This document shows, piece by piece, positions 1,207 to 22,382 of a DNA stretch of 25,056 nt. The position numbers and the translations under genes are program-made. The first letter of the stretch is position 1, and every line of letters begins with the position of its first letter. The stretch is from a virus: IMG/VR virus record IMGVR_UViG_3300032731_000205, positions 1 through 25,056 of that record. One strand, given 5' to 3'. The notes under the pieces are model-generated. The model saw only the letters and a list, made by a program, of their open reading frames with translations, had not been told where the DNA came from and searched no databases.

Positions 1207-1812
1207 TTAATCTACTGGAAAGAGTTGCGTTATCCTTTGTTTGGTTTTCAGGGCTAAGCCACTATTGAACTTGCCCTCCTGAACCTGTGCCCAAGTCAAA
1301 TGCTCCCTTGATACCCTAGTCCCACCTATATTCATCTTGTTGATTTGGGTGCGAGACCTAGACCTAGCTGCCTTAGCAGCCACGCCAATCACAAGCAGTT
1401 TCTCAAGGTCAGGTGGTAAGGTAGAAGTAGACTCCGTTACGCTGTGGAGCTTGTGGCAGTATAGGTAAGCCGTCTCGTCCCCTGATGGTCGCCTGTTAGT
1501 AACTACCCTGACCGTATCACCGAACCTAGTAACATTCCTGTAATCAGGGTTTGGTGTAGTGCCGACAGGATACTCCGCATATCGGACAGAGATTAAATCC
1601 TCTATCGTGCTGACATCAGTCTCAATAGAGTTGACAGTGAGGGTAACGCTTTCCTTGACTTCATAGGGTCTAGCGTTTGATATATCCAAGAGGACAGCAG
1701 TTATGAATATGTCTAGCTCGTCATCTTCCCATTCCATCGTCTTATTAACATCAAACTCATCCCTCAAGAGCTGACGAACTAGAGCACGGATGCCATCTAA
1801 GTTATTCGCCAT
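1207..1812 (-). CDS. Head-tail connector (adaptor)-like protein
   Basis: This is a 201-aa protein with an N-terminal helical segment (IRALVRQLLRDE, then a WEDDELDIFI stretch at about 27-36), a central beta-rich part and a C-terminal helical, basic part. Its size, this layout and its position just after the coat-protein cluster resemble phage gp6-type head-tail connector or adaptor proteins, which form a ring under the portal. I see no catalytic motif. The ATG at 1812 has an AGGTG site 5 bases upstream. It sits 7 bases after the stop of the 80-aa basic gene and 12 bases before the next structural gene. The family assignment is inferred from position and general pattern; a tail completion protein is the main alternative. 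Confidence 0.55.
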   Translation of the reverse strand: MANNLDGIRALVRQLLRDEFDVNKTMEWEDDELDIFITAVLLDISNARPYEVKESVTLTVNSIETDVSTIEDLISVRYAEYPVGTTPNPDYRNVTRFGDTVRVVTNRRPSGDETAYLYCHKLHSVTESTSTLPPDLEKLLVIGVAAKAARSRSRTQINKMNIGGTRVSREHLTWAQVQEGKFNSGLALKTKQRITQLFPVD

Positions 1813-1819
1813 TTAGCAC

Positions 1820-2062
1820 CTATCTTCGGCTTCGGCTACCTTTGCTCTTGGAGCTACTTCGGCTATGGCTTGTTGAGTGTTTGGCACTTGGCGGTTTATA
1901 TGTTCTGGCTTTCTTTTTGCCAGTAGGTTTGAAGCCGTGCTCAAGACCTCTTATCAAACTAGCCTGAGCCTGAGCCTTCTGATGAGTAGTGCTCTTAGCT
2001 TTAACTCCGCTAGGAGTGCTAACTTCGTAGCCGTCAACCTTTCTTACTTTTACAGGACACAT
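1820..2062 (-). CDS. Small basic phage protein with Ser/Arg-rich tail
   Basis: This 80-aa protein starts with a compact part built around KVDGYEVSTPSGVKAKSTT and a short helix, LIRGLEHGFKPTGK, an arrangement I have seen in small conserved proteins of phage structural operons. Its last 25 or so residues are almost entirely Ser, Lys, Arg and His (for example SHSRSSSKSKGSRSRR). The ATG at 2062 follows a run of Gs that can act as the ribosome site. The function is unknown. The basic tail would allow binding to DNA or to acidic virion surfaces, but that is inference. Confidence 0.65.
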   Translation of the reverse strand: MCPVKVRKVDGYEVSTPSGVKAKSTTHQKAQAQASLIRGLEHGFKPTGKKKARTYKPPSAKHSTSHSRSSSKSKGSRSRR

Positions 2063-2071
2063 AATGCCCCC

Positions 2072-2518
2072 CTAGTCCTTCTCCTCCTCTGGTGGAAAGA
2101 ACTTATCGTAAAGGCTTTCGTGAGCTTCGGTTAATTGCTTGGTGTCATTGAGCCGTTTCATAGCAGCAGAAGCTATGCTGTGAGCCTTAGTGCCCAGATG
2201 TATCTCTTTCTCTAACCCCACCGACTCTGGCGGAATAAAGAGGTTCATTACCCCAGTAGGTATCATCAAAAGCTCGTGCTTTCCACAGGTCGGTTGTTCC
2301 ATAAAGAAGCCTTTGTTATCACAGGTAAGCCGTTGACCCTCCTTATCTTCACCACGATAAGGGCACACATACTCGTTCCGTGCCTCAAAAGACTTCAATT
2401 CCTCCTCGCTAAAGCTCAGTGTCTCTCGGAGCTTACGCAGGATTTTGATGGTCAGTATGTCCTCTTTCTCTGGCAAAGCCCCTAGTAGTTGCGTCCTTTC
2501 CAGTATGGTCAGTTTCAT
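2072..2518 (-). CDS. Conserved phage protein with Cys/His cluster
   Basis: This is a 148-aa protein. The N-terminal 45 residues (ERTQLLGALPEKEDILTIKI, then a LSFSEEEL stretch) match a pattern I recognise from small hypothetical proteins in phage structural operons. It then carries C52, C66, C78 and H81, spaced so that they could bind one zinc ion. The C-terminal half is helical and charged. The ATG at 2518 has AAAGGGAG 8 bases upstream. It lies between the beta-rich structural gene and the basic small gene. The function is unknown; a role in head or tail completion is only suggested by position. Confidence 0.65.
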   Translation of the reverse strand: MKLTILERTQLLGALPEKEDILTIKILRKLRETLSFSEEELKSFEARNEYVCPYRGEDKEGQRLTCDNKGFFMEQPTCGKHELLMIPTGVMNLFIPPESVGLEKEIHLGTKAHSIASAAMKRLNDTKQLTEAHESLYDKFFPPEEEKD

Positions 2519-2545
2519 TTTTATACTCCCTTTCCGAGTTTATTT

Positions 2546-2571
2546 GGGGGAGATTTTTAAGGCTCTCCCCC
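2546..2571 (-). other. Hairpin between structural genes
   Basis: A perfect 8-bp inverted repeat, GGGGGAGA with TCTCCCCC, encloses a 10-base loop. It lies in the gap between the stop of the gene at 2584 and the ribosome site of the gene at 2518. In the minus-strand transcript the stem is followed by AAATAAAC, not a U run, so it does not look like a full intrinsic terminator. It may set mRNA stability or partly attenuate distal gene expression. Confidence 0.5.
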
Positions 2572-2583
2572 TTGCCTTATATG

Positions 2584-3456
2584 TTATGCGTCAGCAACAC
2601 CAAGTAGGTAAAAGGTGGTTGAACCCATCAAGCACCTTACCTTATGTGTCCAAGTAGCTGTGCTAGTATCTACCGCAGCAGCAACAGGACCGACACCCCA
2701 AGCACCTTCTTGCTCAATGAAGTTGGTGGCAACCTTAGCGTTGTTGTTTGCCTGCAAGTAGAGGATACTGGTTGGTGTGCCTGTGCCGTGATTTCTAAAG
2801 CGGATAAATGCTTCACGGGTAGCAGCACTAGCCGTTGGATTGCCTGTTTGCAGGTCAAGGATATGCTCGTAGGTAACACCAGTGCCTATGTTATCCATAT
2901 AGATGCTCAAGGCACTAATCAGCCCTATGGTCGGGTTACCTGATTGGCAGAAGTATAGGCTGGCGATATAAGCATAGGGCGTATCCCCAGTAACAGTCAG
3001 GTCTATACCAAGACTATTATGCTCCCCACTACCTGTCTTCGCCCCACTTGCGGTTGCTGCGATATACAGCCCCCTAGAATAGCCCGAAGCATTAGTAGTG
3101 GTGTCAGTAACGGTCAAGGACATAGCGTTTAACGCTGTAGAGCCTGCTATGGTTACAGTCAGCCCATCAAGGTTGATGTTCACAGCACCAATTTCACAGT
3201 GATGGAACAGGGTATTGTCTCCGTGTGCTACCGCCGTAGTGCCCCCCTGTGCCCTGACGATGGTCAGCGTCTTGGTGGCTGTCGCAACAGCCGTAACCTT
3301 GACAACCTCCTCATCAACGCTACCACAGTCAAGCAATGCCATAAATGGGGCAGTAGGAATATCGGTAACACTCTTGAGCACCAATTCGGTATCATCTGCG
3401 TCTATCGCTGCCGTGATGTATGAGTTCCACAAAGCTAATAAAGTTAGAGTTTTCAC
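2584..3456 (-). CDS. Beta-rich structural protein (decoration or fibre type)
   Basis: This is a 290-aa protein read from a GTG at 3456, with AAGGAG 11 bases upstream; no better in-frame start is seen. Residues about 10-85 form the same module as in the left-edge gene (TKTLTIVRAQGGTTAVAHGD and flanks). The rest is Gly, Thr, Ser and Ala rich with alternating hydrophobic residues, as in beta-solenoid or beta-sandwich virion surface proteins. It is directly downstream of the coat gene, a usual place for head decoration or head-fibre genes. I infer a capsid or tail surface role; no enzymatic motif is visible. Confidence 0.65.
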   Translation of the reverse strand: MKTLTLLALWNSYITAAIDADDTELVLKSVTDIPTAPFMALLDCGSVDEEVVKVTAVATATKTLTIVRAQGGTTAVAHGDNTLFHHCEIGAVNINLDGLTVTIAGSTALNAMSLTVTDTTTNASGYSRGLYIAATASGAKTGSGEHNSLGIDLTVTGDTPYAYIASLYFCQSGNPTIGLISALSIYMDNIGTGVTYEHILDLQTGNPTASAATREAFIRFRNHGTGTPTSILYLQANNNAKVATNFIEQEGAWGVGPVAAAVDTSTATWTHKVRCLMGSTTFYLLGVADA

Positions 3457-3532
3457 TTCCTTAACTTCTCCTTATTTTATTTCATCAGAGAGGAAGTGTT
3501 ACGTCCCCCTCCCGACCTTTATTTTGACCAGA

Positions 3533-4660
3533 TTAACTAGCGTCATACAGACGGACAGCGAGTTCAGGTGTCAGGGTCTTGAAGCCACAGAGCAAGGATA
3601 TGGTCATCAGGTTCTTGAACTGTGGTGTAACGTAGTCATAGACCACGTTCATCGTGATGCCATTGTAGGCTACAGTAGCACCCTTCGCCCCACCCAGAGG
3701 CGGTTCTAGCGGTGCTGACACCATCGCAAAGGCGTTCTTGTGGAATAACAGGTTTTCCTTGCTGGTCGTGGCAGCAGCGTGGAAGGTAACGACCTTATCA
3801 TTTTCAACCGCAGCGTTCAGAGCAGGATAGATAGGGAAGTCAGCCTCATTGCCAGATAAAAGCACATCAGCAGTTATTACATACTGACCAGTATTATCTG
3901 CAATGGTGATGATAGTTCCCTTAGCTATCGTATCCGCACTTGCTAGATTGTCAATGTGAATGGTTGTCGTGCCAGCAGGATAGGTAGTCCCTGTGTCAAT
4001 AATCCCGCTAACATCGGTTGAGCCTATAGCGTGGGTCTGGATGTTCTGGTTCTCAAAGAAGTCAAAGCCAAAGATACGCCCCAGAGAGGCTTCACGGAGA
4101 GCCGTTGTAACCCCTGTCTTATCTAAGTCTCGGAAAGCATCCAGAGCAAGCAACGAAGCAGTAGTAAGCGGACTCATTACCGCATACCTGTTCCTCTGCG
4201 GAGCTTTGTTGTTGCCCATTACCTTACGAGCATTTAGTAAGTCAGCGATGCTAGTTGTGGTCTCACAGTCCTCATAGTAGGGGATGTCCTTGTAGAGCGA
4301 TGCCAGTTTAACATCAACCTTATCGGCAATCGCCTGCACCGCAGGCTCAATGAACTGACTGTAGAAGCTCCTGACTTCTAATGTCAACTGTTTCGCTCCT
4401 ACCTGTAAAGGCACAACGATAATAGTGTCCATCAAAACGTCAATCTTTTCCTCTACAACGTTCTGGAATTGCCCAGTGAGGTCGCCGTCAAACTCAACAG
4501 CGTCTACCGTTATCGGCTTAGTAACCTGAACGGTATCCCCTACGTGTTTGAACTCTTTGGAGTAATCCTTGAAACAAAGACCCCCGAAAACCCAGTTGTT
4601 CAAGAGGGCGATTAAGCCCATCTTGGCTACAGCAGTTGGGGTAATCAGCGTATTCGCCAA
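3533..4660 (-). CDS. Major coat (capsid) protein, P22 type
   Basis: This 375-aa protein builds the icosahedral head. Its N-terminus shows the pattern of the P22 coat protein family (HK97 fold): ALLNNWVFGGL at 18-28, KDYSKEF, the GDTVQVTKP strand at 41-49, then FIEPAVQAIADKVD at about 103-116. Residues about 225-295 are a Thr/Ile/Val-rich insertion, in the place of the beta-barrel I-domain of P22 gp5. The C-terminus ends with strands typical of the family (TPELAVRLYD). Translation appears to start at TTG (4660), because AGGAGGG lies 9 bases upstream and no ATG is placed better. It follows the scaffold gene by 22 bases, as expected for co-assembly. Confidence 0.9.
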   Translation of the reverse strand: MANTLITPTAVAKMGLIALLNNWVFGGLCFKDYSKEFKHVGDTVQVTKPITVDAVEFDGDLTGQFQNVVEEKIDVLMDTIIVVPLQVGAKQLTLEVRSFYSQFIEPAVQAIADKVDVKLASLYKDIPYYEDCETTTSIADLLNARKVMGNNKAPQRNRYAVMSPLTTASLLALDAFRDLDKTGVTTALREASLGRIFGFDFFENQNIQTHAIGSTDVSGIIDTGTTYPAGTTTIHIDNLASADTIAKGTIITIADNTGQYVITADVLLSGNEADFPIYPALNAAVENDKVVTFHAAATTSKENLLFHKNAFAMVSAPLEPPLGGAKGATVAYNGITMNVVYDYVTPQFKNLMTISLLCGFKTLTPELAVRLYDAS

Positions 4661-4682
4661 TCTCTTGTCCCTCCTATTTTAT

Positions 4683-5423
4683 TTATTTAGGCGGCGGGGC
4701 AAGCTCCTTCTCTAAGTCCCCTGTCGGCATTTTCTCAGCCGACTCAGAAGTTAAAGCAGTTTCCCTTGCACCAGCGGACTCAGTTGAGATTGGCTCAAAA
4801 GACTGGACAGTGGGAACTTCATCCCCAAGAGGCTCAGTCTCAGTTTCAGTCGGGATAGCCTTCGTGCCAGCAATTCTAGCAGCAACTCTATCAAGGGCTT
4901 CCTCATCGGTTATGCCTAGCTCCTCAAGTTCAGCTACATCAAGTTTGTATTTGGCAGCAATCTTAGGGATGGTCAGCGTTGACTTCGTTCTAACTGCCTC
5001 ATCCTCGTCAGCTTTCACCTGTAGCTCTCGCACTTTAACCTTAGACTCCCTATCAATAATGTCTCTTTCACGCTGGTTCAGGCGGTCAGTTCTTTCAAAT
5101 GCTTGTATCGCACTTGGGTCTCCCGATTGACGAGCCGTATCAAATGCTCGGTTTCTGCTTTCGGTCTCAAGATGCTCAAGGCGAGTATTAAGAGTGTCAA
5201 CCTGACCTTTCAAATTATCCCTCTCGCCCTTCGTGGTTGTTAGCTCTTTCGCCCTACCTGCCGAAGCCTCCGCATCAGATTTCAGTTTGGCATAGTCCTT
5301 CTGGGACAAGGTAACTTTCTTGCCCTCTTGGGAAGTCTCTTTACCTTTCTGAGAAGTTGTCGGGGTCTGGTCAACCCCAAGTGCGTCCTTATTCAGGTTT
5401 TGATTGTCCCCTTGTTGAACCAT
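4683..5423 (-). CDS. Capsid scaffold protein
   Basis: This 246-aa protein is highly charged and poor in aromatic residues, with a long predicted coiled coil at about 40-140 (KDYAKLKSDAEASAGRAKEL and following heptads) and a disordered acidic Pro-rich C-terminus. Such proteins placed directly upstream of a coat gene are scaffolds that direct procapsid assembly and then leave. The ATG at 5423 has AGGAGG 9 bases upstream. No Ser-His-Asp or other protease motif is visible here or nearby, so the scaffold is probably released whole, as in P22. The assignment rests on position, composition and coiled coil rather than on a sequence motif. Confidence 0.75.
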   Translation of the reverse strand: MVQQGDNQNLNKDALGVDQTPTTSQKGKETSQEGKKVTLSQKDYAKLKSDAEASAGRAKELTTTKGERDNLKGQVDTLNTRLEHLETESRNRAFDTARQSGDPSAIQAFERTDRLNQRERDIIDRESKVKVRELQVKADEDEAVRTKSTLTIPKIAAKYKLDVAELEELGITDEEALDRVAARIAGTKAIPTETETEPLGDEVPTVQSFEPISTESAGARETALTSESAEKMPTGDLEKELAPPPK

Positions 5424-5481
5424 TATTGGTCAACCTCCTATTGTTTAATTCTTACCACAGGATTTAAGATTTGTCAAACTT

Positions 5482-8400
5482 TTATTTCATACGCTCCCTC
5501 CAATCCCTTAATAATGCGTCAAGTTCATCCGACCTTTCCTCATATTCCTCAAATTGCCTTTGCTGCTCTAACCATTTCTGATAGGCAGCACTAGCTTCTC
5601 CCTCGTAAGGCGAAATACCCTCTGTATCTCTTTTCTCAACAGGCGTGGATACTTTACCTGTTACGATTAGCCAATCATCCAGCTCAGGATATTTCACTCT
5701 CATTTCGTATCTAGGTTCACCTTTAGGCGTGAACTGGTATATCCCATAAAGTCGCCAGACCTCTCTTGACGGCACTTTTTCAAATGTCCTACGTTCCTTG
5801 AATATACCCAAAGTCAGCATCGTATCGTAGAATTGGCGGTGCTCCATCAAGAACCAGTCATCGTCATACCACTCGTCCTGACCCGATGGCTTGCCTTTGT
5901 CTATTATCAAATAATACTGGACAAAGTTATCTACTTGCTCCTCATAGCCAATCAAGTCTTTGTAGGCATCCCTGCGGTAGCGAGCTGTCTTGAACTCTCT
6001 GCCTAACGTGCCTGAGAATAATACTGACCTTGCCTTTGCCCTAGCTTCTGAGTCAGTAATGTAATCTGGCGAAGTGTTGTCGCCATAGGCATCCCAGATG
6101 TCAAACAGGTCTTGATACTGCTCGTATATTTCATCATACTGGACAGCAGGAACGTCCTCAGCTTTTGGAATATCAACACCCTGAATGGTGTTCATAGCCT
6201 GAGCAAACTCAGGGTGTTGTAGCAGAAATCTCTCTTGCCTGTATCCCCTTGCTGGCAGTTCGTAATACTGGACATACGTCTCTACCTGTTCGGGGGTGAA
6301 CCGCAAGAAGTCAGGTTCAATACCAACCGCAGAAAAGGCTCTACGCCTCCACCTATCAAGCCTGTATTCCTCATTACCCTCAAGGAAAGCAGCACGCTCT
6401 CTTTTAATAGCCAGAAGCCTATCATCATCATTGCTGATATGAGCGTGATTGTCAGGTATGCCCTCATTATACCAAGTGTCCTGCTCTCGCCACATCCTGT
6501 TGATGGTGAGCACAGGTATATTCCACTTGACGTTGCTCCTGCCGTTCTCCAAGATATAAACATCGTTATCAGGTAGACCGCCATCATCGGAAAGTTTATC
6601 GTTCTCCAAAGCCCAACGGTAAGCATCCGCATTATCTACCAGCCACATCTTACCTTCGGAACTGCCTGCCTCAAACTCATCTATTACCCTACCCCTATTT
6701 ACCCAAGCGTTGATTATCTTATCAGGTGTAGGCTTTTCATTAGTGCCGACCTCAATAGCTTCAACTCGCCTCAGTATATCCCTGAACTGTAGACCGCCAC
6801 CTACATCGGTCTGCATTATCTTGTCAATTGCAGCCTCTCTCTTGTCCTCATCCTCAATATCCTTAGCCAAATCCAGAGCATCGTATAAGTTCCTGTGCGT
6901 GGTTTTCAGTTCTAGCGATGGTATCGGCACGTCAGGGACTTCAACCCCTCGCCATTCGCAATAGTCTAGGTCTTTAGCCTTGAGAAGCTGAGCCTCCCAA
7001 CTATTAGATTTGCCCTCAGCTACCAGTTGCTCATAAAGGAAGTGGGTCTCTATGGACTTTTCAGGAGGGAGCGTCAAGGAGGGGATTGCACCGTTAGGAA
7101 TATCCAAGTCGGCGACCATCCTATTGAACTCGGTATAAGCCTCAAGGGTTAATATTGGGGCTTGACCCCATAAAGCTAATCTGGCATTGTCCTTCGGGTT
7201 AGCCCTGAGCCAATCAAGTCTAGGATTAGCACGAAGGTCGGGAATATCCTTGAGCATCTGTGCCTGCTCATCTTCGCTGGCACGGTGATACTTGCGAATT
7301 AGCTCTAGCTGTCGCTTGGTTAAGTTGCCCAGATAGGCTTTGGGATACTCCTTAATATGGTCGGCAAGCTCCTGTGGGTCTGTTATCCTTTGACGCTCCT
7401 GCCATTGGAGATAGTATTGCTCAAATGTAGTGCCTTCACTTGGGTCGGCATTTATCTTATAGATGGAAGTATTAGGATAGACACCAACTAGCTTTTCGCT
7501 GGTCTCCTTTTCAAACCAGTTGAACACGGTAGCAGGGATGCCAGCTTTACCTTCCAAGTCCTCAGCAGTAACCGCCTCAAGCGTCTCGGTATAATCACGG
7601 TTCAACTTCCGCATATCGTAAATATCAGGTAGCTCAAGTGATAACACTGGCACGTCCTCAATTACCTCGCCTAACCTGTTATCAGCTTCGCTCAGGCTGT
7701 GCTCCATTACCTCTGGGATTTCGCCCAAGAACAAGACCATAGCTCTGCGTGCTACCTCTGTTTTCAAAATGTCTATCTCGTCAATCTTGGCTCGCTTCTC
7801 CTCTGGGGTCATAGTCTTTGATTTGTAAATCACGTCCTGCTTCTGACGCAATTCAGATAAATCTCTTGCGACCCTCCTCAGATAGCGTGCAGCAGCCGAA
7901 TAGAATATATCCCCCTCAAAGTCATAATAGAACAACAGCTCAGGATGGGCTGCCTTATATGTCTCAAACTTCCCCTGCTCGTCCAGAGACAGCATTTCCT
8001 TGAGGTAACTCTCGCCCTTCTGATATTCCTCTAGCAGTTCATAGAACTTATTGACCGTCTCGCCAGACGAACCGTAGGGATTGCGAACTACGAAAGCCTT
8101 AATTACTGGTATGTCAGCCAGCGTGGGTGATGGCTCTGGTATATATGGGCTGACGCCTGTGCCTTTAAGGATACTGCCAAGAATATCCAAAGCATACGAA
8201 CCCAAGCCACCTGTCCACCCCCTAACCACATTCTCAAACTTGGCTGGCGATATGTTCAGCCATTCGCCTATTTTCTTGGAGAACTCGGAAGTCCAGCCTG
8301 TGTATTGCAGCTCAGGAGGCATATTCTTTCGGCTGTCTGGGACTATCTTTCTCGCCATAAAGAAGCTGTAGTTGGTTAGAGCCTCAATGACAGGCAGGAT

Positions 8401-11400
8401 AGCAGTAGGCATCGGATTAGGAGCACCCTGACCAAGTATCTCAAGCAAAGTATCTTTGAGCATATCTGGGTCTTTCTCGTCTAACCACTCTAAAAACCGC
8501 TCAGGCATAGACCCGAATATAATGCCTAACTCAAATGGTTTGGGAATACGATAGATGGCATCCTCCGTGAATATAATCCAGAACAGGTCTTTTTGCCATT
8601 GCGGTATCTCTTTCCAGCGTGGGTCGTCCCTATTGGCTAGATAAAGAGTTATGGAAGGCAAGGTTATCCCGACAAATATCTTGAAAGAAGTCCTGGCTGG
8701 ATGCTCTTTGAAGGAGCTTGCCATCCTGCCCCAACCACGAACATTAGCGTTAAAGAATGCTGCGAGCCTGTTGATGGAGAAAGCGGTAGTTCCTGCCTGT
8801 GCGAAGTCCAGAGATACATTCCTTGAGGAGTAACCAGCTTCAAGAGGAACAGCACCAGCTTTGATACCTTTCTTGAATTCGCCTAGCCTGGTGGCTTTCT
8901 CGCCAAACTCACTCACAATCTGAAATAGCTCCAATGGATGCTTGACGTAATCGGTGAACTTATGTCCCTCAACAACTTCCTTGAAGGACTTGCTGAGATA
9001 CTGCCTGTCCATTGAGACCAGCATAGCACGCTCACCACCAGAGGCTCGGTATAGCTGATAATCGCTATCCCTACGGATAACGCCAGCCAAGCCTTTCAAA
9101 AAATCAACAGCAGGCAGAAAGTTATAATTAGAGTAGACGAAGGCTGTCATCTGGTCTCTAGCAGGATTACGCACCATAAAGTCAGGACTCAGGGTAGCAC
9201 CAGCTCTTAGCCACTTAGCAGGGTAGGATAGAAACTTGCCGATAAGTCCCATTGACTCCCTATCCAGATTAAGCAGGGCATCACGGAGGTCTGGGTCTAC
9301 CCTAAAATACCTTTTCTTCCCATCAATCAATACTGTAACCTCATCCCCACGCACATAGAAAGAGGGGCGGAATATATCTACGACCTGCTCATTCTCCTCA
9401 TCTGTCAGCCCCTCAACATCAACGCCTAGCTCACTAGCCTTGACTCTGGCTACTCTGGCGATGGGGGTTGCTACCCGCTCAAAATATTCGGCAAGCTCTG
9501 GGTTCTGGTCTACCAGATTTGCCATCATTATACCGACCTGGTTTCTCTCAGCAGCACTCACCAATACATAAGTGTTCTTGACGATACTCTCAAGCGGATT
9601 GATTATCTCACGCTCCGAGCCTTTTATCCTCTTGATAGGCTGAGCGATATTTGCCATCTTCTTACCCATCAAACCCTTGGCTGCCAGCTCATTGTAGACA
9701 CGATAGAATGGCACATAAGATTGTGATGTTGCCCTCAGCTTCTCAAGTAGCTCAGGACTTAGTAGACCCATTTCATTAGAATAAACCAGGAGTCTATCCT
9801 GATACTCATAGAGCCTGTTTGCCAGCTTGGGGAAGTATGTGTTTTCGCCAGCTATTTGAGCCACTGTATCCCTAGCATCCTCTAGGCTAATACCAGTTTC
9901 AATCTCCCTGCCGTGCAGCTCTACAGCCCTGCGAGCTACAAGGTAGGTGCTGAAATCTCTCCACTTCTGCGGTTCTCTGACAACGTGGAGTATGCTCTCA
10001 AGGGACTCACCTGTATATTCTATCTGGGACTTACCCTTGACCGCCTTATAGATTTGCTTCCCCAGAGTTCCATACTCAATAAAGACATTCGCCTTGCCGA
10101 TAACGCCCCTGAGCAATCTACCTGCGATATAGGGGTCGTCCTGTATCTTGAGTTGAATACCACCTTTAACCGCTTCGTCTCGGAACTTCTGGATGGCGTA
10201 GATGTCATCTACCATCTTGACCTGAAAGGTATGCCACCCCCTCTTAATCTTGTCAGCTATACCTACATCAGTAGGCTCGGTCTGTATTCTCTGAGCTATC
10301 CTGCCTGCTGCGTCCTTTGGCATAGGAGCTTCTGGCATAGGCGGTGAGACCACAGACGGAGCTGGCTTAGGTGCTACCTTCGGAGCTTGTATCCTTGCCT
10401 TTGGAGGAGGAACTGCCTCAGCCTCCAACTCCGCAGCCATCCTAGCTGCTTCGGCTAGTGTCGTGGGGATAACGCCAACTCTAGGTGTCGTAGGTATGAC
10501 TTCCCTTATTGAAGGGATGACATTTTGGGGATTATCAATAGCAAGAGATTCTATTAGAGTTCCCTCTTTATTGTTTATGTCAATAAAATACTGAATACCA
10601 GTACGGTGAAGGGCTGTCAAGGATTTAATAGCTGCTTCTTGCTGGACATTTATCCCACCAAATATTTCTAGGTTGAGATTACCTGACTCCTCAAAGAAAG
10701 CCCTGATATAACCAGACTCTCGCTGAAACTTTATGACATCTATCCCTGCTGCTTTAGCAAGTTGGACTAATGCTTCTGCGTGAGTGCCCGTAACATCAAG
10801 AAACCCTACAAAGTTCCCTTCTGGTGAAATCAATCTGATACGTCTTTGTTCGGTTATCGGTATAATATCTAGTTCGGCTTGTTTTATAAGTTCAACCTCT
10901 GGGGTAACAGGTGGAACTTCAAGGGCAGATTCGGGAGTCATCTTGTGCCTGATAATACTATCTCTCTCTGCCTTATCAAGTTCTGCTATCCGAGAGTCAG
11001 CCCAACCCAAATCTCTTAATTGTGTAACCTCTGGGGTAGTGGGCAAGACAGCTCCCTCAATCCTAGCCTGTCTCTCTATTTCTGACGGCAATTTTGTAGG
11101 TTCATACCAGTTACCAGTTTCAGGGTCTTGGATAAAACCTTTCGCTTCTAATTCCAAAGGCGTCAATCCTGCAATAGCGGATGGTCTAGCCCTACGCAAC
11201 GAAGCGTAGCCAGCTCCGAACACAGCCAGAGGAGCAGTAGCTATGAGCGTCCTCACAAACACATCGCCCATACCTTCAAATATACTTTGGTTCTCGTCAA
11301 TTATCCTGACGCCAGCGTTCATTACTGCCTGCTGAGCTACTTCCTCCATAGCCTCAATTATCTCAATCGTGCTGAATGTTCTTAGACCTTTCTTTGCCAG

Positions 11401-12978
11401 ATTACGCAATGTCCTTGTAGCTAACTGCTCAGTTACCTCTTTAGAGAACATCTTGAATATATGAGGGAATACTTGCTTTAGGTATGGTAGGTCTCCTGCT
11501 ACCTCTATTGATGAAACGAGCACGCCAATCGGCAGAGACATAAGACCAGCCTGTTCCTCAGTAGCTCCGTGAGCCAGTAGTGTTTCGTGGGCTTCCTGAG
11601 CCTGCGGAGGTATAGCCATAGCCATACCAGCAGCTATGCCCAGAGCTGGATTGCCTGTGGCTGCTGCTACCGTAACAGTTGTCCCCATAATAGCCAGCAT
11701 AAAAGGAGCGGTGCTTGCGAACTCGTAAGCCCAATACATCGGGTCGCCTGCTACTTCTGGATGCTTGACACAGCCCTCAGACCACTCTAATCTAGGGGAT
11801 AATTCTGGACGCTTGGCTATCCACTCCTGCCACTCATTCTGAGATAAGGAATAAACTCGCCTGAACTCATCCCTTATCTGCTTGTTGCCAGCGTTGACCT
11901 TATCCACCCAATCATCACCATAGATACCACGCTCAAAGTCGCCCATATCACGGAATAAGAAGTTAGGCAAAGCGGAAACAACAAACTCCTGAGACCTCTG
12001 ATAGAGCTGCTTCCCCCCTAAGTAGAAGGCATCCCATACATCCTTGAGCTTGCTTTCTACTGGTAGGGGGTCAAACTCCTGAGTTGCGTAATTATAAGTG
12101 CCGACCCACGCACCAGTATGGTCGTAGGCTGTGCCTCTATTTATGTCTATGGTGAGGAGCTTACTAACTCCATCAACAGGTAACACTAACTTTTGGATAC
12201 TAAAGACTTGCCCTATCTCCTCCCAACTAAAGCCCATAGTCCTGAGCAAATCCTGTTTAGGTCTGGTGCTACCGCCTGTTCTTATCTCATCAATGAAGCC
12301 ACCGAAGTCCTCCTTGACCTGAGTTTGAAGCTCCTCATATCCCCTGTCTGGATAAACAGAGTGAATTGTATCAATATACTTCTGCTTCTCAGTAACCATA
12401 AAGAAACGACTGATTTCCTCTGCTGTAATACCAGCCACAAACACACGGAGCAAACTCTCACTATCAGGAGTTCTACCTAGATTGTAGATAGTATTAAATA
12501 AGGCTTGCGGGTCTCTCTGGGATAAGTCAACTAGCTGCGTCCACACCATTTCAGGCAGCTCCTCTACTGTGTAGCCCCAACTAGCCTCTGGTCTAAACCT
12601 CTCAGGGAATAATCGCTTGAGCAAATCAGAGACCGCAGGTATTATCTGTGGTGAAACAGGTATCTCGGCAGGCTCAATACCTTCAACTGGCGTAACACCA
12701 ATCCGCATCTGCTCTATTTGTTCTTCGCTATACCTAATTCCCTGCGGACTGATTGCACCGCCTTCGGGAAATAACTCCCACCGCTCAGGAGTAACAAAGG
12801 TATAAACAGGCTGTGCCCCTTCACCCTGCCCGACAGCCTTTAAGTTCCACAGTGGATTGATGTCATAACCCAAATCCTTTGCCTGTCTGGGGTCAATGAT
12901 TAAGGTCTGACCTTTCCTCAGAGCCTTGAGCCTTTTCTCTAACTCGGTCTCTTGTGTTACTTGTGCTTCTTGAACCAT
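5482..12978 (-). CDS. Giant polyvalent / internal virion ejection protein (LPD38-like)
   Basis: This 2,498-aa protein fills nearly a third of the window. Hydrophobic stretches at about 424-457, 475-492, 577-592 and 1433-1446 could insert in membranes. Residues about 714-800 hold a small alpha/beta domain (from GNFVGFLDVTGTHAEALV on) of a type seen in phage polyvalent proteins. A Pro-rich linker (about 856-891) follows. Residues about 1255-1465, with DFMVRNPARDQ and the sequence after it, match my memory of large polyvalent protein-associated domain 38. The last 1,000 residues are helical and charged, with loosely repeated YVQYY/HPEF-type blocks at about 2231-2263 and 2349-2387. I infer a protein packaged in the head and injected with DNA. 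It starts by a one-base TAATG overlap with the preceding gene. No HExxH or other enzyme site was found. Confidence 0.75.
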   Translation of the reverse strand: MVQEAQVTQETELEKRLKALRKGQTLIIDPRQAKDLGYDINPLWNLKAVGQGEGAQPVYTFVTPERWELFPEGGAISPQGIRYSEEQIEQMRIGVTPVEGIEPAEIPVSPQIIPAVSDLLKRLFPERFRPEASWGYTVEELPEMVWTQLVDLSQRDPQALFNTIYNLGRTPDSESLLRVFVAGITAEEISRFFMVTEKQKYIDTIHSVYPDRGYEELQTQVKEDFGGFIDEIRTGGSTRPKQDLLRTMGFSWEEIGQVFSIQKLVLPVDGVSKLLTIDINRGTAYDHTGAWVGTYNYATQEFDPLPVESKLKDVWDAFYLGGKQLYQRSQEFVVSALPNFLFRDMGDFERGIYGDDWVDKVNAGNKQIRDEFRRVYSLSQNEWQEWIAKRPELSPRLEWSEGCVKHPEVAGDPMYWAYEFASTAPFMLAIMGTTVTVAAATGNPALGIAAGMAMAIPPQAQEAHETLLAHGATEEQAGLMSLPIGVLVSSIEVAGDLPYLKQVFPHIFKMFSKEVTEQLATRTLRNLAKKGLRTFSTIEIIEAMEEVAQQAVMNAGVRIIDENQSIFEGMGDVFVRTLIATAPLAVFGAGYASLRRARPSAIAGLTPLELEAKGFIQDPETGNWYEPTKLPSEIERQARIEGAVLPTTPEVTQLRDLGWADSRIAELDKAERDSIIRHKMTPESALEVPPVTPEVELIKQAELDIIPITEQRRIRLISPEGNFVGFLDVTGTHAEALVQLAKAAGIDVIKFQRESGYIRAFFEESGNLNLEIFGGINVQQEAAIKSLTALHRTGIQYFIDINNKEGTLIESLAIDNPQNVIPSIREVIPTTPRVGVIPTTLAEAARMAAELEAEAVPPPKARIQAPKVAPKPAPSVVSPPMPEAPMPKDAAGRIAQRIQTEPTDVGIADKIKRGWHTFQVKMVDDIYAIQKFRDEAVKGGIQLKIQDDPYIAGRLLRGVIGKANVFIEYGTLGKQIYKAVKGKSQIEYTGESLESILHVVREPQKWRDFSTYLVARRAVELHGREIETGISLEDARDTVAQIAGENTYFPKLANRLYEYQDRLLVYSNEMGLLSPELLEKLRATSQSYVPFYRVYNELAAKGLMGKKMANIAQPIKRIKGSEREIINPLESIVKNTYVLVSAAERNQVGIMMANLVDQNPELAEYFERVATPIARVARVKASELGVDVEGLTDEENEQVVDIFRPSFYVRGDEVTVLIDGKKRYFRVDPDLRDALLNLDRESMGLIGKFLSYPAKWLRAGATLSPDFMVRNPARDQMTAFVYSNYNFLPAVDFLKGLAGVIRRDSDYQLYRASGGERAMLVSMDRQYLSKSFKEVVEGHKFTDYVKHPLELFQIVSEFGEKATRLGEFKKGIKAGAVPLEAGYSSRNVSLDFAQAGTTAFSINRLAAFFNANVRGWGRMASSFKEHPARTSFKIFVGITLPSITLYLANRDDPRWKEIPQWQKDLFWIIFTEDAIYRIPKPFELGIIFGSMPERFLEWLDEKDPDMLKDTLLEILGQGAPNPMPTAILPVIEALTNYSFFMARKIVPDSRKNMPPELQYTGWTSEFSKKIGEWLNISPAKFENVVRGWTGGLGSYALDILGSILKGTGVSPYIPEPSPTLADIPVIKAFVVRNPYGSSGETVNKFYELLEEYQKGESYLKEMLSLDEQGKFETYKAAHPELLFYYDFEGDIFYSAAARYLRRVARDLSELRQKQDVIYKSKTMTPEEKRAKIDEIDILKTEVARRAMVLFLGEIPEVMEHSLSEADNRLGEVIEDVPVLSLELPDIYDMRKLNRDYTETLEAVTAEDLEGKAGIPATVFNWFEKETSEKLVGVYPNTSIYKINADPSEGTTFEQYYLQWQERQRITDPQELADHIKEYPKAYLGNLTKRQLELIRKYHRASEDEQAQMLKDIPDLRANPRLDWLRANPKDNARLALWGQAPILTLEAYTEFNRMVADLDIPNGAIPSLTLPPEKSIETHFLYEQLVAEGKSNSWEAQLLKAKDLDYCEWRGVEVPDVPIPSLELKTTHRNLYDALDLAKDIEDEDKREAAIDKIMQTDVGGGLQFRDILRRVEAIEVGTNEKPTPDKIINAWVNRGRVIDEFEAGSSEGKMWLVDNADAYRWALENDKLSDDGGLPDNDVYILENGRSNVKWNIPVLTINRMWREQDTWYNEGIPDNHAHISNDDDRLLAIKRERAAFLEGNEEYRLDRWRRRAFSAVGIEPDFLRFTPEQVETYVQYYELPARGYRQERFLLQHPEFAQAMNTIQGVDIPKAEDVPAVQYDEIYEQYQDLFDIWDAYGDNTSPDYITDSEARAKARSVLFSGTLGREFKTARYRRDAYKDLIGYEEQVDNFVQYYLIIDKGKPSGQDEWYDDDWFLMEHRQFYDTMLTLGIFKERRTFEKVPSREVWRLYGIYQFTPKGEPRYEMRVKYPELDDWLIVTGKVSTPVEKRDTEGISPYEGEASAAYQKWLEQQRQFEEYEERSDELDALLRDWRERMK

Positions 12979-13178
12979 TATGCTCTCGGTGTCCTCACTG
13001 GCAATAATTTCTGCTTAGGTGGTTCGCCAAAGAAAGGGGCTGCCTCTCCTTCCTTAGTTTCTGGCTGCCCTGTTCTCTGGTTCAGGTATTCCCTAAACTT
13101 CTCTATATTAACTGAACTCGGTGATATAAGTGATTGTTCTACCTGCCTGTCAGCCTCGGCATGGGTCAACTTCGCCAT
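12978..13178 (-). CDS. Small protein between portal and giant protein
   Basis: This 66-aa, Pro/Lys/Glu-rich protein has one amphipathic helix near the start (THAEADRQVEQSLI) and a disordered C-terminus. Its start overlaps the portal stop by one base (TAATG), and its own stop overlaps the start of the giant gene in the same way, so the three are translationally coupled. GAGGAGG in the end of the portal gene is its ribosome site. I do not recognise the family. Position suggests a small head-assembly or portal-associated factor. Confidence 0.65.
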   Translation of the reverse strand: MAKLTHAEADRQVEQSLISPSSVNIEKFREYLNQRTGQPETKEGEAAPFFGEPPKQKLLPVRTPRA

Positions 13179-15004
13179 TATGTCCTCCTCGCTCTCGGCT
13201 TGCTTTTAGCTGTTTCCACCAGAGCCTCCTGAGTCCTGCCCCCTCTAGCAGTTTCGGCAAGCCTAGCTATCCTGTCCTCCTCATCTATCTCAGCCCCGAC
13301 CTCCTCCTCAGATGTGGCTTGCCTACCACCGCCACCACCACCCTCACCCAACAGGGACACAGGGGGTTTGCCACGCTCCAACTGCTTAGGTTGCTGACCA
13401 GCCCCAAGAGCCATTTCGTCCTGCATAGTGCTTTCTTTTAGTATCCGCAGCAGGGATTTCAGTGTGAGCTTGGCTTCGGTATCATACCGCTTAGCTTCCT
13501 CGCCAGTAGCTTGCTCAGCTCTGGTTATGAGGCTATGGACTCTCCTGTAAAGACGGATGCGAATGTCATCCCTCTCTGATTGCTCATCCCTCAGACCATC
13601 CTCATCTTCCTCTGGGTGTCTACGCTTCAATATCTCTATCCTGATAGCCCTATCAGGTATCACACCACGCATAGATTGAGCTTCGGTGATTTCAGCGAGC
13701 TTCTGCTCCCTAGACTCGGAGAAGTATTTATACTGTAATCTATACTCGCCTTTCAATTTCGCAGGTTCGTATGTAGTCCTGCCACCTTCCTCACCTAACT
13801 CCACAGGCAATCCCATCTGTATTATTTGCTTGATAACCATTCGGGACATTGCCTGATAGAACATAGCAAAGCATTGAAGTCTGGGGACGAATATCTGGTC
13901 TCTGCTTTCTGTTAGTCTGTAAATAGCAGCACCCGACAGGGGGAAACTGAGGTTGCCGTAATCTACGTTAGGCAAAGAGCCACGCTGCAAGCGACCCTCA
14001 ATCATAGCGTATTCCAGTCGGGTAGCGTTCCTGATGTCATTGACAGGTATAAGCGTGTAACCTCCACCCTTTTCAATACTGACCACTACGCCTAACCCGA
14101 ATGGGATAGCTTCAACTTCCTTACCCTCGCCTGCGTCTGAGGCATACTGCCTAGCCCCAAAGAAGCTCGCCATAGTAAGGTTATGGAGCACGGTAGCCAT
14201 ACGGTTCATTTCAGGATACAGCAAGCGGTTAAGAGCGAAGATGCTCTCGCCTTCGTGGGCTACATTAAGAGGGTCTGCCAGCATTGAACCAGAGGGGACT
14301 CGCTTGTAAATGATAGGCACATAGCCCTCGCCGTTATTCTCGCTGGCATAGGGGTGCTCCTCATCCCTGACCTGCTCCGCATTTTGTCCCTGACCTACCC
14401 AAGCCAAGTGCCTCTTTCTGCTATAGACATCGTAGACCAGAGCATCCTTCTCCACCCCGATGTCCTTTCCTAGCTTTTCCAGAATGTAAGTTCTGGACTG
14501 TCTGGTTAGGTAAGACCCCCAGTTCATACCGTCCATCCCCATATCATACCAGAAGTATCGGGTATCTAATGGACGAACATCCTTAACTGGTTTCCCATCC
14601 TTGCCCTTGCGGTTCAAAATCTGGGCTGCCAGAGAACCCCTGACGCAACTCTGCTCAACGTGGAAAGGATACATACCGATAAGTGCCCTGTTGCCCATAT
14701 TCTCATCAATGGTAATGTAATAATCATCAAGCATCCTCTCAATATAACTGTCCCTCACCCTCTCCTTGCTTTCAACTATTGTCTGGGGAGAGGCTGACTG
14801 TAGAATACCGATGCAGCGGAAAGCAAATAAGATAGCATCATTGAGGGTGATATTAACAATTCTGGGAACTGGCTTGGTTTCGTCTGTTATCATCTTCATT
14901 TCATACGCTTTATTCCAATACAGGTCAAGGTCGGTGTCGTGCCTGTCATAAAGCGGTTGAAACTCGGTTTTCCTCTGCTCTATCTCTTTCAGTTCTAATG
15001 GCAT
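13178..15004 (-). CDS. Portal protein
   Basis: This 608-aa protein is the likely portal, the dodecameric ring at the head vertex through which DNA is packaged and leaves. Supporting facts are its size, its place directly after the large terminase, the helical and charged N-terminal part, the central mixed region (NRKGKDGKPVKDVRPLDTRY, FWYDMGMDGMNWGSYL) and a long helix region at about 375-480 as in portal stems. The C-terminal 110 residues are low in complexity, with a run of six Gly and then a Lys/Arg-rich end, and probably face the head interior. The ATG at 15004 has GAGGAGGG 6 bases upstream. Confidence 0.8.
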   Translation of the reverse strand: MPLELKEIEQRKTEFQPLYDRHDTDLDLYWNKAYEMKMITDETKPVPRIVNITLNDAILFAFRCIGILQSASPQTIVESKERVRDSYIERMLDDYYITIDENMGNRALIGMYPFHVEQSCVRGSLAAQILNRKGKDGKPVKDVRPLDTRYFWYDMGMDGMNWGSYLTRQSRTYILEKLGKDIGVEKDALVYDVYSRKRHLAWVGQGQNAEQVRDEEHPYASENNGEGYVPIIYKRVPSGSMLADPLNVAHEGESIFALNRLLYPEMNRMATVLHNLTMASFFGARQYASDAGEGKEVEAIPFGLGVVVSIEKGGGYTLIPVNDIRNATRLEYAMIEGRLQRGSLPNVDYGNLSFPLSGAAIYRLTESRDQIFVPRLQCFAMFYQAMSRMVIKQIIQMGLPVELGEEGGRTTYEPAKLKGEYRLQYKYFSESREQKLAEITEAQSMRGVIPDRAIRIEILKRRHPEEDEDGLRDEQSERDDIRIRLYRRVHSLITRAEQATGEEAKRYDTEAKLTLKSLLRILKESTMQDEMALGAGQQPKQLERGKPPVSLLGEGGGGGGRQATSEEEVGAEIDEEDRIARLAETARGGRTQEALVETAKSKPRARRT

Positions 15005-15027: not shown

Positions 15028-16500
15028 TTATAAGTAACTTTTTACCTTGGGTCTATCCATTAACGATTTAGCCACAGGCTTCATCAACATCATCAGGGCA
15101 TCGGCTCGGTCAGGAGATTTGACCCCCCTTGACCTAGCCTCCTCCTTTGACTCAAGGAGGAGCTGGTTTCTTTTATTATAACGGTATCTCAGGTCGGCTA
15201 GTTGAGCCTTGAGCTTGGTATCATTCGGTATCTGTAGTTGCTCATCCTGCAAGTCCTGACCCAACTTGAAGTATAGCTCAGCTCTGAGGTTGCCAAATAT
15301 CTCCTTATTCAGAGCAGCCTCGCTGGAATTAAAAGCCTCCACAGCCAGCCCATTATCAAGTAGAATATCAACCACGCCACTACCCACGCCAGTAGCGTCT
15401 ATCCGAGTAATAACTGGTTTCCATTGCTTGATGAGGTTAGCCGTCCTGCCTGCGGAGAACACGTTATCTTGGTGCATCCAAGTATCCCAAGCGATAATCC
15501 TCCCCCCACGCCTTGCCATAAAGACGGTCTCATCATCGCCATACCTTGATACATCAAGGGCAGCGACCACAGAACCCTCTGGCTCAACGAGCACAGACAT
15601 CATAGCGTGCTCTATAACCCATAGCGGAATGAGGGTGTTAATACCCATCTCTGGGAAATTGCCGAGACAATAACATTGGAACAGGAAGTTAAACTCCCCC
15701 CACTCAAGAAACCGCTCATAGACCCACTCAGGAGTAATGAGATAAGGTCTCGGCATCGGCTTATCGCCAATCTTGGCACGCCACTTATTTGAGCGGATGT
15801 CCTCCATAGTGATACCGAACTCGGTGAAGTTCGGCGTATCAAAGCAGGAGATATGAAAGACGCTCCACAGACCATTCTCATTGAGGTAGGCATCCCTGAA
15901 ATTGCCAGTTGGCTGCGTAGGGTTGCCAATAAGCAACTGAGACCTGAACTCGCCAGCAGCCAGAGGGTTCTCCATTGCTGCGTAGACATTGGGGGTGAGA
16001 CCAGAAGCCTCATCGCCAATCACCAGCACGTATTTATTATGTAAACCCTGAAACCGCTCAGGCTCATCGGTAGAAAGACCGATGGCGAACCAGTCCTCCC
16101 GCATATCAATGCGGGTCAGCTTGATGTCGCCACCCAGATTAAACCTAGCCCCTGTCCACGCAGACCTTAGCTCACGCCACAGGATAGACTCAACCTGTCG
16201 GAAAGTAGGAGCGGTAGTAATAACAGTGGAAGGGACGAAGTTGAAAAGGAAAGCGACAGCTATCCTAGCTGCCGTATGCGATTTTGAGGTTGATGTGCTG
16301 GACGCACAGACAGTCCTTCGTGAGTGCCCGCCATCCATATTGAATACAGAGCGTGCTATCTGTCTGGGTGTATCCCACATTGAGCACCCCAGAATATTCT
16401 CAATCCAGAGGTCGGGATAAGCCCTGCCCCACGCCCTGAGCTTGGCAGCTCCCTCTGGCGTCTCCACGTCTAATTTCGGTAATGTCTCAACCTGACTCAT
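15028..16500 (-). CDS. terL: Terminase large subunit (TerL)
   Basis: This 490-aa protein is the packaging motor ATPase and headful or site-specific nuclease. The Walker A region is unusual: SSTSTSKS at 67-74, with Ser in place of both glycines of GxxxxGKS but with the Lys kept. Walker B with the catalytic Glu is VLVIGDEASG at about 156-165. Motif III, IGNPTQPTG, is at about 188-196. The RNase H-like nuclease carries three acidic sites: ALDVSRYGDD (about 311-320), RIDATGVG (about 364-371) and DRADAL (about 463). The length is normal for TerL. The ATG at 16500 overlaps the stop of the 54-aa membrane protein by one base (TAATG). Confidence 0.93.
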   Translation of the reverse strand: MSQVETLPKLDVETPEGAAKLRAWGRAYPDLWIENILGCSMWDTPRQIARSVFNMDGGHSRRTVCASSTSTSKSHTAARIAVAFLFNFVPSTVITTAPTFRQVESILWRELRSAWTGARFNLGGDIKLTRIDMREDWFAIGLSTDEPERFQGLHNKYVLVIGDEASGLTPNVYAAMENPLAAGEFRSQLLIGNPTQPTGNFRDAYLNENGLWSVFHISCFDTPNFTEFGITMEDIRSNKWRAKIGDKPMPRPYLITPEWVYERFLEWGEFNFLFQCYCLGNFPEMGINTLIPLWVIEHAMMSVLVEPEGSVVAALDVSRYGDDETVFMARRGGRIIAWDTWMHQDNVFSAGRTANLIKQWKPVITRIDATGVGSGVVDILLDNGLAVEAFNSSEAALNKEIFGNLRAELYFKLGQDLQDEQLQIPNDTKLKAQLADLRYRYNKRNQLLLESKEEARSRGVKSPDRADALMMLMKPVAKSLMDRPKVKSYL

Positions 16501-19252: not shown

Positions 19253-19471
19253 ATGGCTGTAGAATGGATTGAGGTAGAGTCCTCTAACGTGGCAGCTATC
19301 GCCTATATCAGAGCAGCCGAACAATTACTTGTTCAATTCAACAACGGCAGCGTCTACTCCTACTCAGCCGTGCCAGTTGAGGTCTTTGATGGCTTAAAGG
19401 CTGCCGACTCAAAGGGCAGGTATCTCAATGCACATATCAAGGGTGTGTATGATTGCCAGAAGATTAGCTGA
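19253..19471 (+). CDS. KTSC-domain protein
   Basis: This 72-aa protein is essentially one KTSC domain: SSNVAAIAYIRAAEQLLVQF at 10-29, then NNGSVYSYSAVPVEVFDGL, and an ADSKGRYLNAHIKGVY end. The KTSC family is common in phages and bacteria and is linked to nucleic acid metabolism by context only. The ATG at 19253 follows AGGGGGTGAG. It ends the first early cluster before promoter P2. Confidence 0.85.
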   Translation: MAVEWIEVESSNVAAIAYIRAAEQLLVQFNNGSVYSYSAVPVEVFDGLKAADSKGRYLNAHIKGVYDCQKIS

Positions 19472-19833: not shown

Positions 19834-20535
19834 ATGGAAAACTATCTTGATAGCTGCCGAGAGTATACCGAGTGGCACACGCCAGCTACCGATTACCCAG
19901 AAACTCAGGTCGGCAACTACCGCATCAAGCGGAGTAGCTACGCTGGCTACTACCAGAACTATGGTATTGACGGCTATATCTTCTTCCGTACCAAGAAGCG
20001 GATACCGATAACTAATCTCCAAGAACTCAGGGGTAAGACTTGGCATAGCTGGATGGTTGACGACCCTCCTCACTGGCGAGCTATGGAGATATATGCCGAG
20101 CAATCACAGGGCACTATACTATGTGCTGGTCTGGGGCTAGGTCTCATCCTCCACGCACTAGCCAAGAACGACAGGGTTAAGCGTGTCGTATGTGTGGAGA
20201 TTAACCAAGATGTGATTGACCTTATGCGGGGGAATATAGCTCACCTGCCTAAGATTGAGATAATAAAGGCAGACTTCTTTGACTTTGTGGAGCTTGACCC
20301 GCACCCCGAAATGTGGGGTGGGATGATTGTGGACTTGTGGGTAGCCAATGAGAAAACGAAGATGGGGATTTATTATCACGAAGTCTTACCATTCGCTGCC
20401 CATCTTGGCTTCAAGTATCCGAACACACCGATTACTTTTCACGGCTTCTCTACCATCTCATCAATCCAACATACTAGCCCTGAGATGATAGAGAAGATTA
20501 AAGAGATGCACGGACTGTTAAAGCGGAGGGGGTGA
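19834..20535 (+). CDS. Class I SAM-dependent methyltransferase-like protein
   Basis: This 233-aa protein has a Rossmann-type SAM-binding core: GTILCAGLGLGL at 93-104 is motif I, VVCVEINQDVIDL at 118-130 holds the acidic ribose contact (E122), KADFFDF at 146-152 is the adenine-side motif, and MIVDLWVANE at 164-173 is the strand-4 end. There is no DPPY/NPPY, so adenine-N6 or cytosine-N4 DNA methylation is not supported; the arrangement is nearer to spermidine synthase-like proteins. The N-terminal 90 residues are a separate aromatic-rich region. The substrate is unknown. It starts 11 bases after the 83-aa gene and ends at the pentanucleotide array. Confidence 0.65.
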   Translation: MENYLDSCREYTEWHTPATDYPETQVGNYRIKRSSYAGYYQNYGIDGYIFFRTKKRIPITNLQELRGKTWHSWMVDDPPHWRAMEIYAEQSQGTILCAGLGLGLILHALAKNDRVKRVVCVEINQDVIDLMRGNIAHLPKIEIIKADFFDFVELDPHPEMWGGMIVDLWVANEKTKMGIYYHEVLPFAAHLGFKYPNTPITFHGFSTISSIQHTSPEMIEKIKEMHGLLKRRG

Positions 20536-21504: not shown

Positions 21505-21532
21505 TTGACAAGGTGTATAATGGGTGTATAAT
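21505..21532 (+). promoter_or_regulatory. Promoter with 11-bp tandem operator
   Basis: TTGACA (21505-21510) and TATAAT (21527-21532) are 16 bp apart, close to the consensus. GGTGTATAAT occurs twice, at 21512-21521 and 21523-21532, with an 11-bp period; the second copy contains the -10 box. Start of transcription about 7 bases past the -10 falls at the ATG of the HTH gene (21539), so its mRNA would have no leader. Confidence 0.8.
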
Positions 21533-21538
21533 AGGCGT

Positions 21539-21721
21539 ATGAGTATTGCTAATGACATAAAGAAGCTCAGGTTAAAACTCATACTAGACCAGCAAGAGTT
21601 CGCAGAGCTTATGGCGGTTCATAGGGAAACTGTATCTAAGTGGGAGCGGGGAGTTCAAAGACCAAAGGCTGTCCACTTGAGAAGAATGGATAGGCTTGCA
21701 AGGAAGGGGAAGGGAAAGTGA
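21539..21721 (+). CDS. Small HTH (XRE/Cro-like) regulator
   Basis: This 60-aa protein has the Cro/C1-type helix-turn-helix: IANDIKKLRLKLILDQQEFA, then ELMAVHRETVSKWERGVQRP, with the usual recognition helix HRETVSKWERG at about 28-38. The domain is nearly the whole protein, so it probably acts as a dimer without a partner domain. The start is set at ATG 21539; a start 15 bases upstream would lie in the promoter. No ribosome site precedes it, and the promoter placement predicts a leaderless message, as for lambda cI. Its stop overlaps the next ORF. Confidence 0.75.
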   Translation: MSIANDIKKLRLKLILDQQEFAELMAVHRETVSKWERGVQRPKAVHLRRMDRLARKGKGK

Positions 21722-21900
21722 ACATTGCTTGGGATTACCTTGACCCGATACAAAGAGCACAGTTGCTACATTGCCGTCCTGAGTTAAGGGACGAATATGA
21801 ACGATACAGAAAAGGAGGAGACCAATGTCAGAGGCAAAGAGAGGATGCGGAGCAGTCCAAAGGTATGATTGGCAAGACCTTGAAAAGTTATACCTCGTAG
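21718..21900 (+). CDS. Possible small ORF after HTH gene
   Basis: This 60-aa ORF starts at GTG 21718, overlaps the HTH stop by GTGA and has GGAAGGG upstream. It begins MNIAWDYLDPIQRAQLLHCR and is charged and helical. Its last 76 bases overlap the start of the HNH endonuclease gene and contain that gene's ribosome site. It may be a true coupled gene or a chance frame; no family is recognised. Confidence 0.4.
   Translation: MNIAWDYLDPIQRAQLLHCRPELRDEYERYRKGGDQCQRQREDAEQSKGMIGKTLKSYTS
21803..21818 (+). promoter_or_regulatory. Second exact GATACAGA-AGGAGG leader
   Basis: GATACAGAAAAGGAGG here matches 19550-19565 in all 16 bases and supplies the ribosome site of ATG 21825. It lies inside the possible ORF at 21718-21900. 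Confidence 0.55.
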
Positions 21901-22382
21901 ATTGCCTATCCTCTGACGACATTGCTACTCTCAAGGATTGTTCTAAAAGTGCGGTTCGCTATGCCTTGATACGAGAGGGCATCCCTATTCGCACATCCTC
22001 AGAAGCCCAAAGGTTACGCTTCCAACAGGTAAACAAGCAACGCTACGGTGCTAATTCAGCCCATTGGAAAGGCGGTAGAATACGTGTAGGTAAGACTAGC
22101 TATTACATTGAAGTAAAGCTCTATCCAGACTCACCCTTTTATTGTATGGCTAACTCACAAGGTTATGTCTTAGAGCATCGCTTGATTATGTCTGAAAATA
22201 TTGGCAGACTTTTATCTAAATCGGAGTTAGTGCACCACATCAATGGAGATAGGCAGGATAATAGACTGGAAAACCTTATGCTTTTGACATCCCGCAAACA
22301 TAACGCATACACGGTTATTTGTAAAGGCTGTCCTTTGCGAAAAGAGCTAACAAGGTTAAAGTCAGAATTAAATGAAGGGTAA
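21825..22382 (+). CDS. HNH endonuclease with N-terminal HTH (homing type)
   Basis: This 185-aa protein has a helix-turn-helix-like start (LSSDDIATLKDCSKSAVRYA at about 29-48) and an HNH core at about 113-160: H118 in VLEHRLIM, H137-H138 in LVHHINGD, N146 and N150 in DNRLENLMLL, and H159. This combination is typical of free-standing phage homing endonucleases, which nick or cut DNA and carry their gene to related genomes. The end is helical and charged. The ATG at 21825 has AAAGGAGG, from the repeated leader, 6 bases upstream. It overlaps the preceding small ORF, which may mark an insertion. The recognition site is not known. Confidence 0.85.
   Translation: MSEAKRGCGAVQRYDWQDLEKLYLVDCLSSDDIATLKDCSKSAVRYALIREGIPIRTSSEAQRLRFQQVNKQRYGANSAHWKGGRIRVGKTSYYIEVKLYPDSPFYCMANSQGYVLEHRLIMSENIGRLLSKSELVHHINGDRQDNRLENLMLLTSRKHNAYTVICKGCPLRKELTRLKSELNEG

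Follow-up and report, generated by a model that had tools for sequence, protein, structure and literature searches.

The window (the whole stretch of 25,056 nt analysed here, positions 1 to 25,056 of IMG/VR record IMGVR_UViG_3300032731_000205) carries a gene for a giant protein of 2,498 aa which, judged by profile comparisons, is a chimera of exchangeable modules whose N-terminal head and C-terminal tail travel together. This modularity is more interesting than the size of the protein. The initial annotation missed, besides this chimeric make-up, the ability of head and tail to hold a middle without LPD38 and the relation of the head to the N-terminal domain of the N4 virion RNA polymerase. 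We consider it reasonably likely that the giant protein is an internal virion protein of modular build, which is ejected along with the DNA and enters the inner membrane, working as N4 gp50 does but with no polymerase.

The gene runs from 12978 to 5482 on the minus strand as a single open frame of 7,497 bp and 2,498 codons, while the plus strand across 5482..12978 contains many stops. In the order of transcription, the terminase large subunit (15028-16500; PHROG 2, E 4e-25) is followed by the portal (13178..15004, minus strand), a 66-aa ORF (12978..13178, minus strand) that has one base in common with either neighbour, the giant gene, a scaffold-like coiled-coil protein (4683..5423, minus strand), and a P22-type major coat protein (3533..4660, minus strand; Pfam E 7e-44, PHROG 283 E 5e-70). 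The scaffold-like protein was assigned by a weak PHROG 194 match, position and synteny. The portal itself matched nothing in the databases and was assigned by position and through relatives, two out of 15 of which hit PHROG 64, a portal family (best E 1.4e-5). The frame, gene order and sequence of the giant gene are kept across dozens of IMG/VR loci, far beyond chance, and the portal-giant-scaffold-coat slot is constant wherever portal and scaffold or coat genes were recognised. The initial annotation, which gave no strand, was right about both the ORF and its position between portal and scaffold.

The central part of the protein is the LPD38 core module, aa 886-1747 (7738..10323, minus strand). 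Pfam LPD38 proper (PF18857) lies at aa 1452-1624 (8107..8625, minus strand) and was found by the profile search against LPD families that had been proposed with the initial annotation. The match covers profile positions 1-187 of 189 at E 1.4e-46 and scores 159.4 bits against a curated cutoff of 27; at this level of similarity the presence of LPD38 is certain. PHROG 9854 matches aa 910-1749 (E 3e-113). By tblastn the core is present in 51 of 50,697 phage records, including Pelagibacter, Bacillus Page group, PTXU04, Vibrio and BA3 phages (24-34% identity for those listed), and none of the 51 matches extends into the tail. The core is mostly helical in the predicted model, and its alignment contains strictly conserved stretches, e.g. 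RWKEIPQWQK and RIPKPF. LPD38 is confined to phage-type polyvalent proteins (PMC5512222). A search of viral structures with the model of aa 1255-2454 returned LPD38 proteins of many phages; PDB structure searches with the same model gave no convincing fold.

The C-terminal tail, aa 1748-2498 (5485..7737, minus strand), is defined by the alignment and by the helical model, and is found at about 50 IMG/VR loci. It is about 750 residues long after the LPD38 core, and not 1,000 residues as had been claimed. Structure prediction in pieces (aa 1-1200 and 1255-2454), as also proposed earlier, confirmed that the tail is helical: aa 1789-2454 are entirely helical in the predicted model, with a pLDDT near 90. 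The model of aa 1255-2454 has a mean pLDDT of 80.7 and a pTM of 0.46, so the packing of its domains is unreliable. The view that the tail is undescribed and has no clear enzyme site holds, as this long helical array includes no recognised enzyme domain and has no relatives in Pfam, PHROGs, PDB sequences or the 50,697 annotated phage records (tail alone, no match at E 0.1). No relatives were found in bacterial genomes with the single peptide pattern searched, and the tail appears so far to be known only from uncultivated phages. Tandem repeats were not found by BLAST or hhalign self-comparison. An FL..NPE-like motif, picked after viewing the sequence, occurs in three copies in the tail (shuffled mean 0.18, maximum 3), which does no more than suggest a repeat ancestry.

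IMG/VR scans gave 24 loci with the whole protein as query, 50 with the tail and 78 with the core, some of them on the same contigs. The head, core and tail profiles were run on all fetched ORFs, and complete distinct ORFs were counted, with the window included. Seven have head, core and tail, 25 have head and tail without a detectable core, 46 have the core alone, one has core and tail and two have the core with a weak head hit, although these counts depend on the thresholds and on the queries (core and tail, none with the head). Head and tail thus occur together in 32 complete ORFs, of which 25 have a different middle. LPD38 proteins without the tail mostly stop within a few dozen residues past the core, and the N-terminal regions of 38 of the 46 core-alone proteins join one cluster, for which no likeness to either the head or the N4 domain was detected. 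The possibility that the middle of the non-LPD38 tail proteins, as in L033:7357-9069, is a diverged LPD38 was rejected, with no detectable relation by hhalign (0.5%). In the tail tree the LPD38 and non-LPD38 kinds cluster without clean separation. At least seven changes are required on the tree, yet the data are compatible with the LPD38 group having arisen once (p-AU 0.36), and several independent swaps of the middle were not accepted. Two loci were unusual in other ways. The giant gene at L003:1-7208 is divided near head residue 405 into overlapping ORFs (1-1332 and 1263-7208) by a natural split or a frameshift, and contig IMGVR_UViG_3300036760_000421 (44.6 kb; L041 and L061) has two portal and giant pairs, which stem either from an assembly that fused two related phages or from a real duplication.

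Between head and core there is an insert, aa 651-838 (10465..11028, minus strand), followed by a Pro-rich linker, aa 839-885 (10324..10464, minus strand), which is of low confidence in the model (for the most part at a pLDDT of about 30-60). The nearest relative, L001, is about 80% identical and is without the 188-residue insert; an IPTTP motif lies at its junction and IPTTP-type motifs lie on both sides of the insert in the window. Comparison with L001 shows that the slot between head and core accepts insertions. The small alpha/beta domain noted in the initial annotation is there, at about aa 705-835, but it is modelled poorly (block pLDDT about 29-58) and its nature as an insert had been missed. 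A search for relatives of this domain found none, and it may be cargo, possibly an effector. The variable regions of other members hold ART-PolyVal, polymerase-beta-type nucleotidyltransferase, Zeta toxin, DNA methylase, InPase and histidine phosphatase domains. Elsewhere, LPD38 proteins occur as fusions with ART, Zeta toxin, methylase or InPase, and tail relatives as fusions with ART or NTase. Three LPD38 giants have such a domain in their variable N-terminal part: Zeta toxin in L018:2713-11553, DNA methylase in L016:4492-11694 and ART in L021:1453-11760. No enzyme domain was recognised in the giant protein of the window by Pfam or PHROGs. Phage polyvalent proteins have been described as very large, with an LPD-type domain, a location among virion genes, and several disparate, mostly enzymatic domains (Iyer 2017). 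The earlier designation as polyvalent agrees with the size, the LPD-type domain and the position among virion genes; it goes too far with regard to several enzymatic activities, enzyme domains being seen only in relatives.

The head module, aa 1-640 (11059..12978, minus strand), is common to the 32 complete ORFs with the tail and is modelled with a pLDDT of about 90 at aa 10-90 and 200-490. The model of aa 1-1200 (mean pLDDT 71) gave no convincing fold match in the PDB, and the PDB and VIA matches of the head were ordinary helical pieces; other LPD proteins were among its weak viral structure matches. The head alone had no match at E 0.1 in the 50,697 annotated phage records. Its Gly/Ala-rich helical part, aa 400-600 (11179..11781, minus strand), contains three hydrophobic stretches (aa 420-438, 477-495 and 573-591), in keeping with the possible membrane segments suggested earlier, although they are only moderately hydrophobic. 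At aa ~463-588 the head profile matches the N4 gp50 N-terminal domain by hhalign (93-94%, E 1e-7 to 2.4e-7). On the N4 side of this comparison stood 23 such domains from N4-type virion polymerases, gathered via their own contigs. This match makes the hydrophobic part of the head a relative of the N-terminal membrane domain found in the N4 virion RNA polymerase. If the match merely reflected the Gly/Ala-rich hydrophobic helices present on both sides, the link to ejection would come only from position and LPD38. We give this very little credence, since 30 column and 30 block (6-block) shuffles of the N4 profile scored at most 23.5 against 67.2 for the real comparison, the reversed N4 profile scored 19.7, and none of the tail, core and non-LPD38 middle profiles matched the N4 domain.

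The N4 gp50 N-terminal domain is likely to be membrane-spanning and ejected, and is joined to the polymerase by a 100-residue low-complexity linker (preprint, PMC12633501). Like gp50 of N4 (Schitoviridae), the giant protein is a single giant chain with a related N-terminal hydrophobic domain, a low-complexity linker between domains and a large C-terminal part. In contrast with gp50, which is matched by vRNAP Pfam models at up to E 1.7e-97, it is matched by none of these models and has no RNA polymerase domain. The giant protein is classed as LPD38-containing and is not an N4-type polymerase, but it probably works like gp50 as a delivery chain. The core itself gave a structural hint of likeness to the gp50 C-terminal domain, which ranked fourth in VIA-align (Z 5.0, rmsd 5.3, 187 aa) and showed a pattern noted by eye. 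However, hhalign gave 0.1-3.5%, our own profile alignment was the same as shuffles (z 0.26), and Foldseek with the core found no PDB match at E under 0.001 and did not list N4. Equating the two domains has no support from sequence or Foldseek PDB searches and is kept only as a lead.

The giant protein shares its LPD38 core and late-gene context with the LPD38 polyvalent proteins JC1 gp69, HTVC034P gp44 and PHROG 9854. Unlike tailless LPD38 proteins, which have their own N-terminus and end soon after the core, it continues with a 750-aa helical tail. In Pelagibacter phage HTVC034P (gp44, core HMM E 1.3e-197) an internal-virion-protein-B-like gene is followed by one more gene, gp44 and a tail fibre gene, which puts gp44 in the place of T7 gene 16. 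The likeness to T7 gp16 is only one of gene position and of working; no transglycosylase domain was found in the giant protein by Pfam, and the head, core and tail profiles had no convincing match to T7 gp14, gp15 or gp16 (best E 0.037).

Taken together, these data point to ejection with the genome because the portal-giant-scaffold-coat slot is constant, an LPD38 core is present, and the head matches the N4 gp50 N-terminal domain with negative controls. Consistent with this, the 4,515-aa LPD38 protein JC1 gp69 was detected by mass spectrometry in purified virions (PMC9144972), HTVC034P gp44 takes the place of T7 gene 16, and the BA3 giant sits two genes after a gene annotated as DNA ejection. 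The co-occurrence of head and tail in 32 complete ORFs, the absence of the insert from L001 and the enzyme-like domains of relatives argue in the same direction. The moderate hydrophobicity of the head stretches, the lack of a recognised enzyme domain, the poor T7 gp14-16 matches and the purely structural nature of the hint linking the core to the N4 C-terminal domain argue against it. Head, core and tail could instead build a large internal scaffold or core round the portal, required for capsid assembly and afterwards left behind or processed. The giant gene does adjoin portal and scaffold or coat genes wherever these are detected, and the tail, a long array of helices, has no enzyme site, but the hydrophobic head is related to an ejected protein and the enzyme-like domains of relatives fit poorly with a purely structural role, making such an assembly factor unlikely. 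Alternatively, LPD38 or the alpha/beta domain might itself be an enzyme whose targets early in infection are the host or defence systems, with the remainder for delivery. The enzyme fusions of LPD38 proteins and tail relatives and the strictly conserved core stretches would fit, but there is no catalytic family match, the core is mostly helical and 25 relatives that have this head and tail carry an unrelated-looking middle in its place; we regard an early effector of this kind as distinctly improbable.

If the giant protein is ejected, head, core and tail may bring about its loading into the procapsid, close to the portal, and at infection it would leave through the phage tail as loosely linked domains. 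The head would then embed its hydrophobic helices in the inner membrane of the host, a step that has been proposed for the related domain of N4 gp50; the LPD38 core and the helical tail would serve as a structural chassis. The slot between head and core would take up small effector domains, here perhaps the one alpha/beta domain. More tentatively, head and tail, the former in common with the N4 virion RNA polymerase, might be a general protein-delivery platform of uncultivated podovirus-like phages, with exchange of whole middles (the LPD38 core or some other) and of small effectors; the LPD38 and N4 C-terminal domains might even be one fold for encapsidation or ejection. A chassis with an N4-related head and an exchangeable middle provides a testable model for the packing of giant proteins, their passage through the tail and their anchoring in the membrane. 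It also shows where to look for new phage effectors. Some small phages devote about a fifth of the genome to one virion protein.

Elsewhere in the window, 23301-24353 encodes a RecT-like annealing protein (Pfam RecT E 2e-4, just under the cutoff), 19834-20535 a methyltransferase or spermidine-synthase-like protein (E 6e-5) and 19253-19471 a KTSC-domain protein (E 8e-22). A small protein at 20978-21343 matches Pfam GP17 (superinfection exclusion; E 2e-16). Finally, an HNH endonuclease (21825-22382; Pfam HNH_3 E 1.2e-11) adjoins an HTH protein at 21524-21721.
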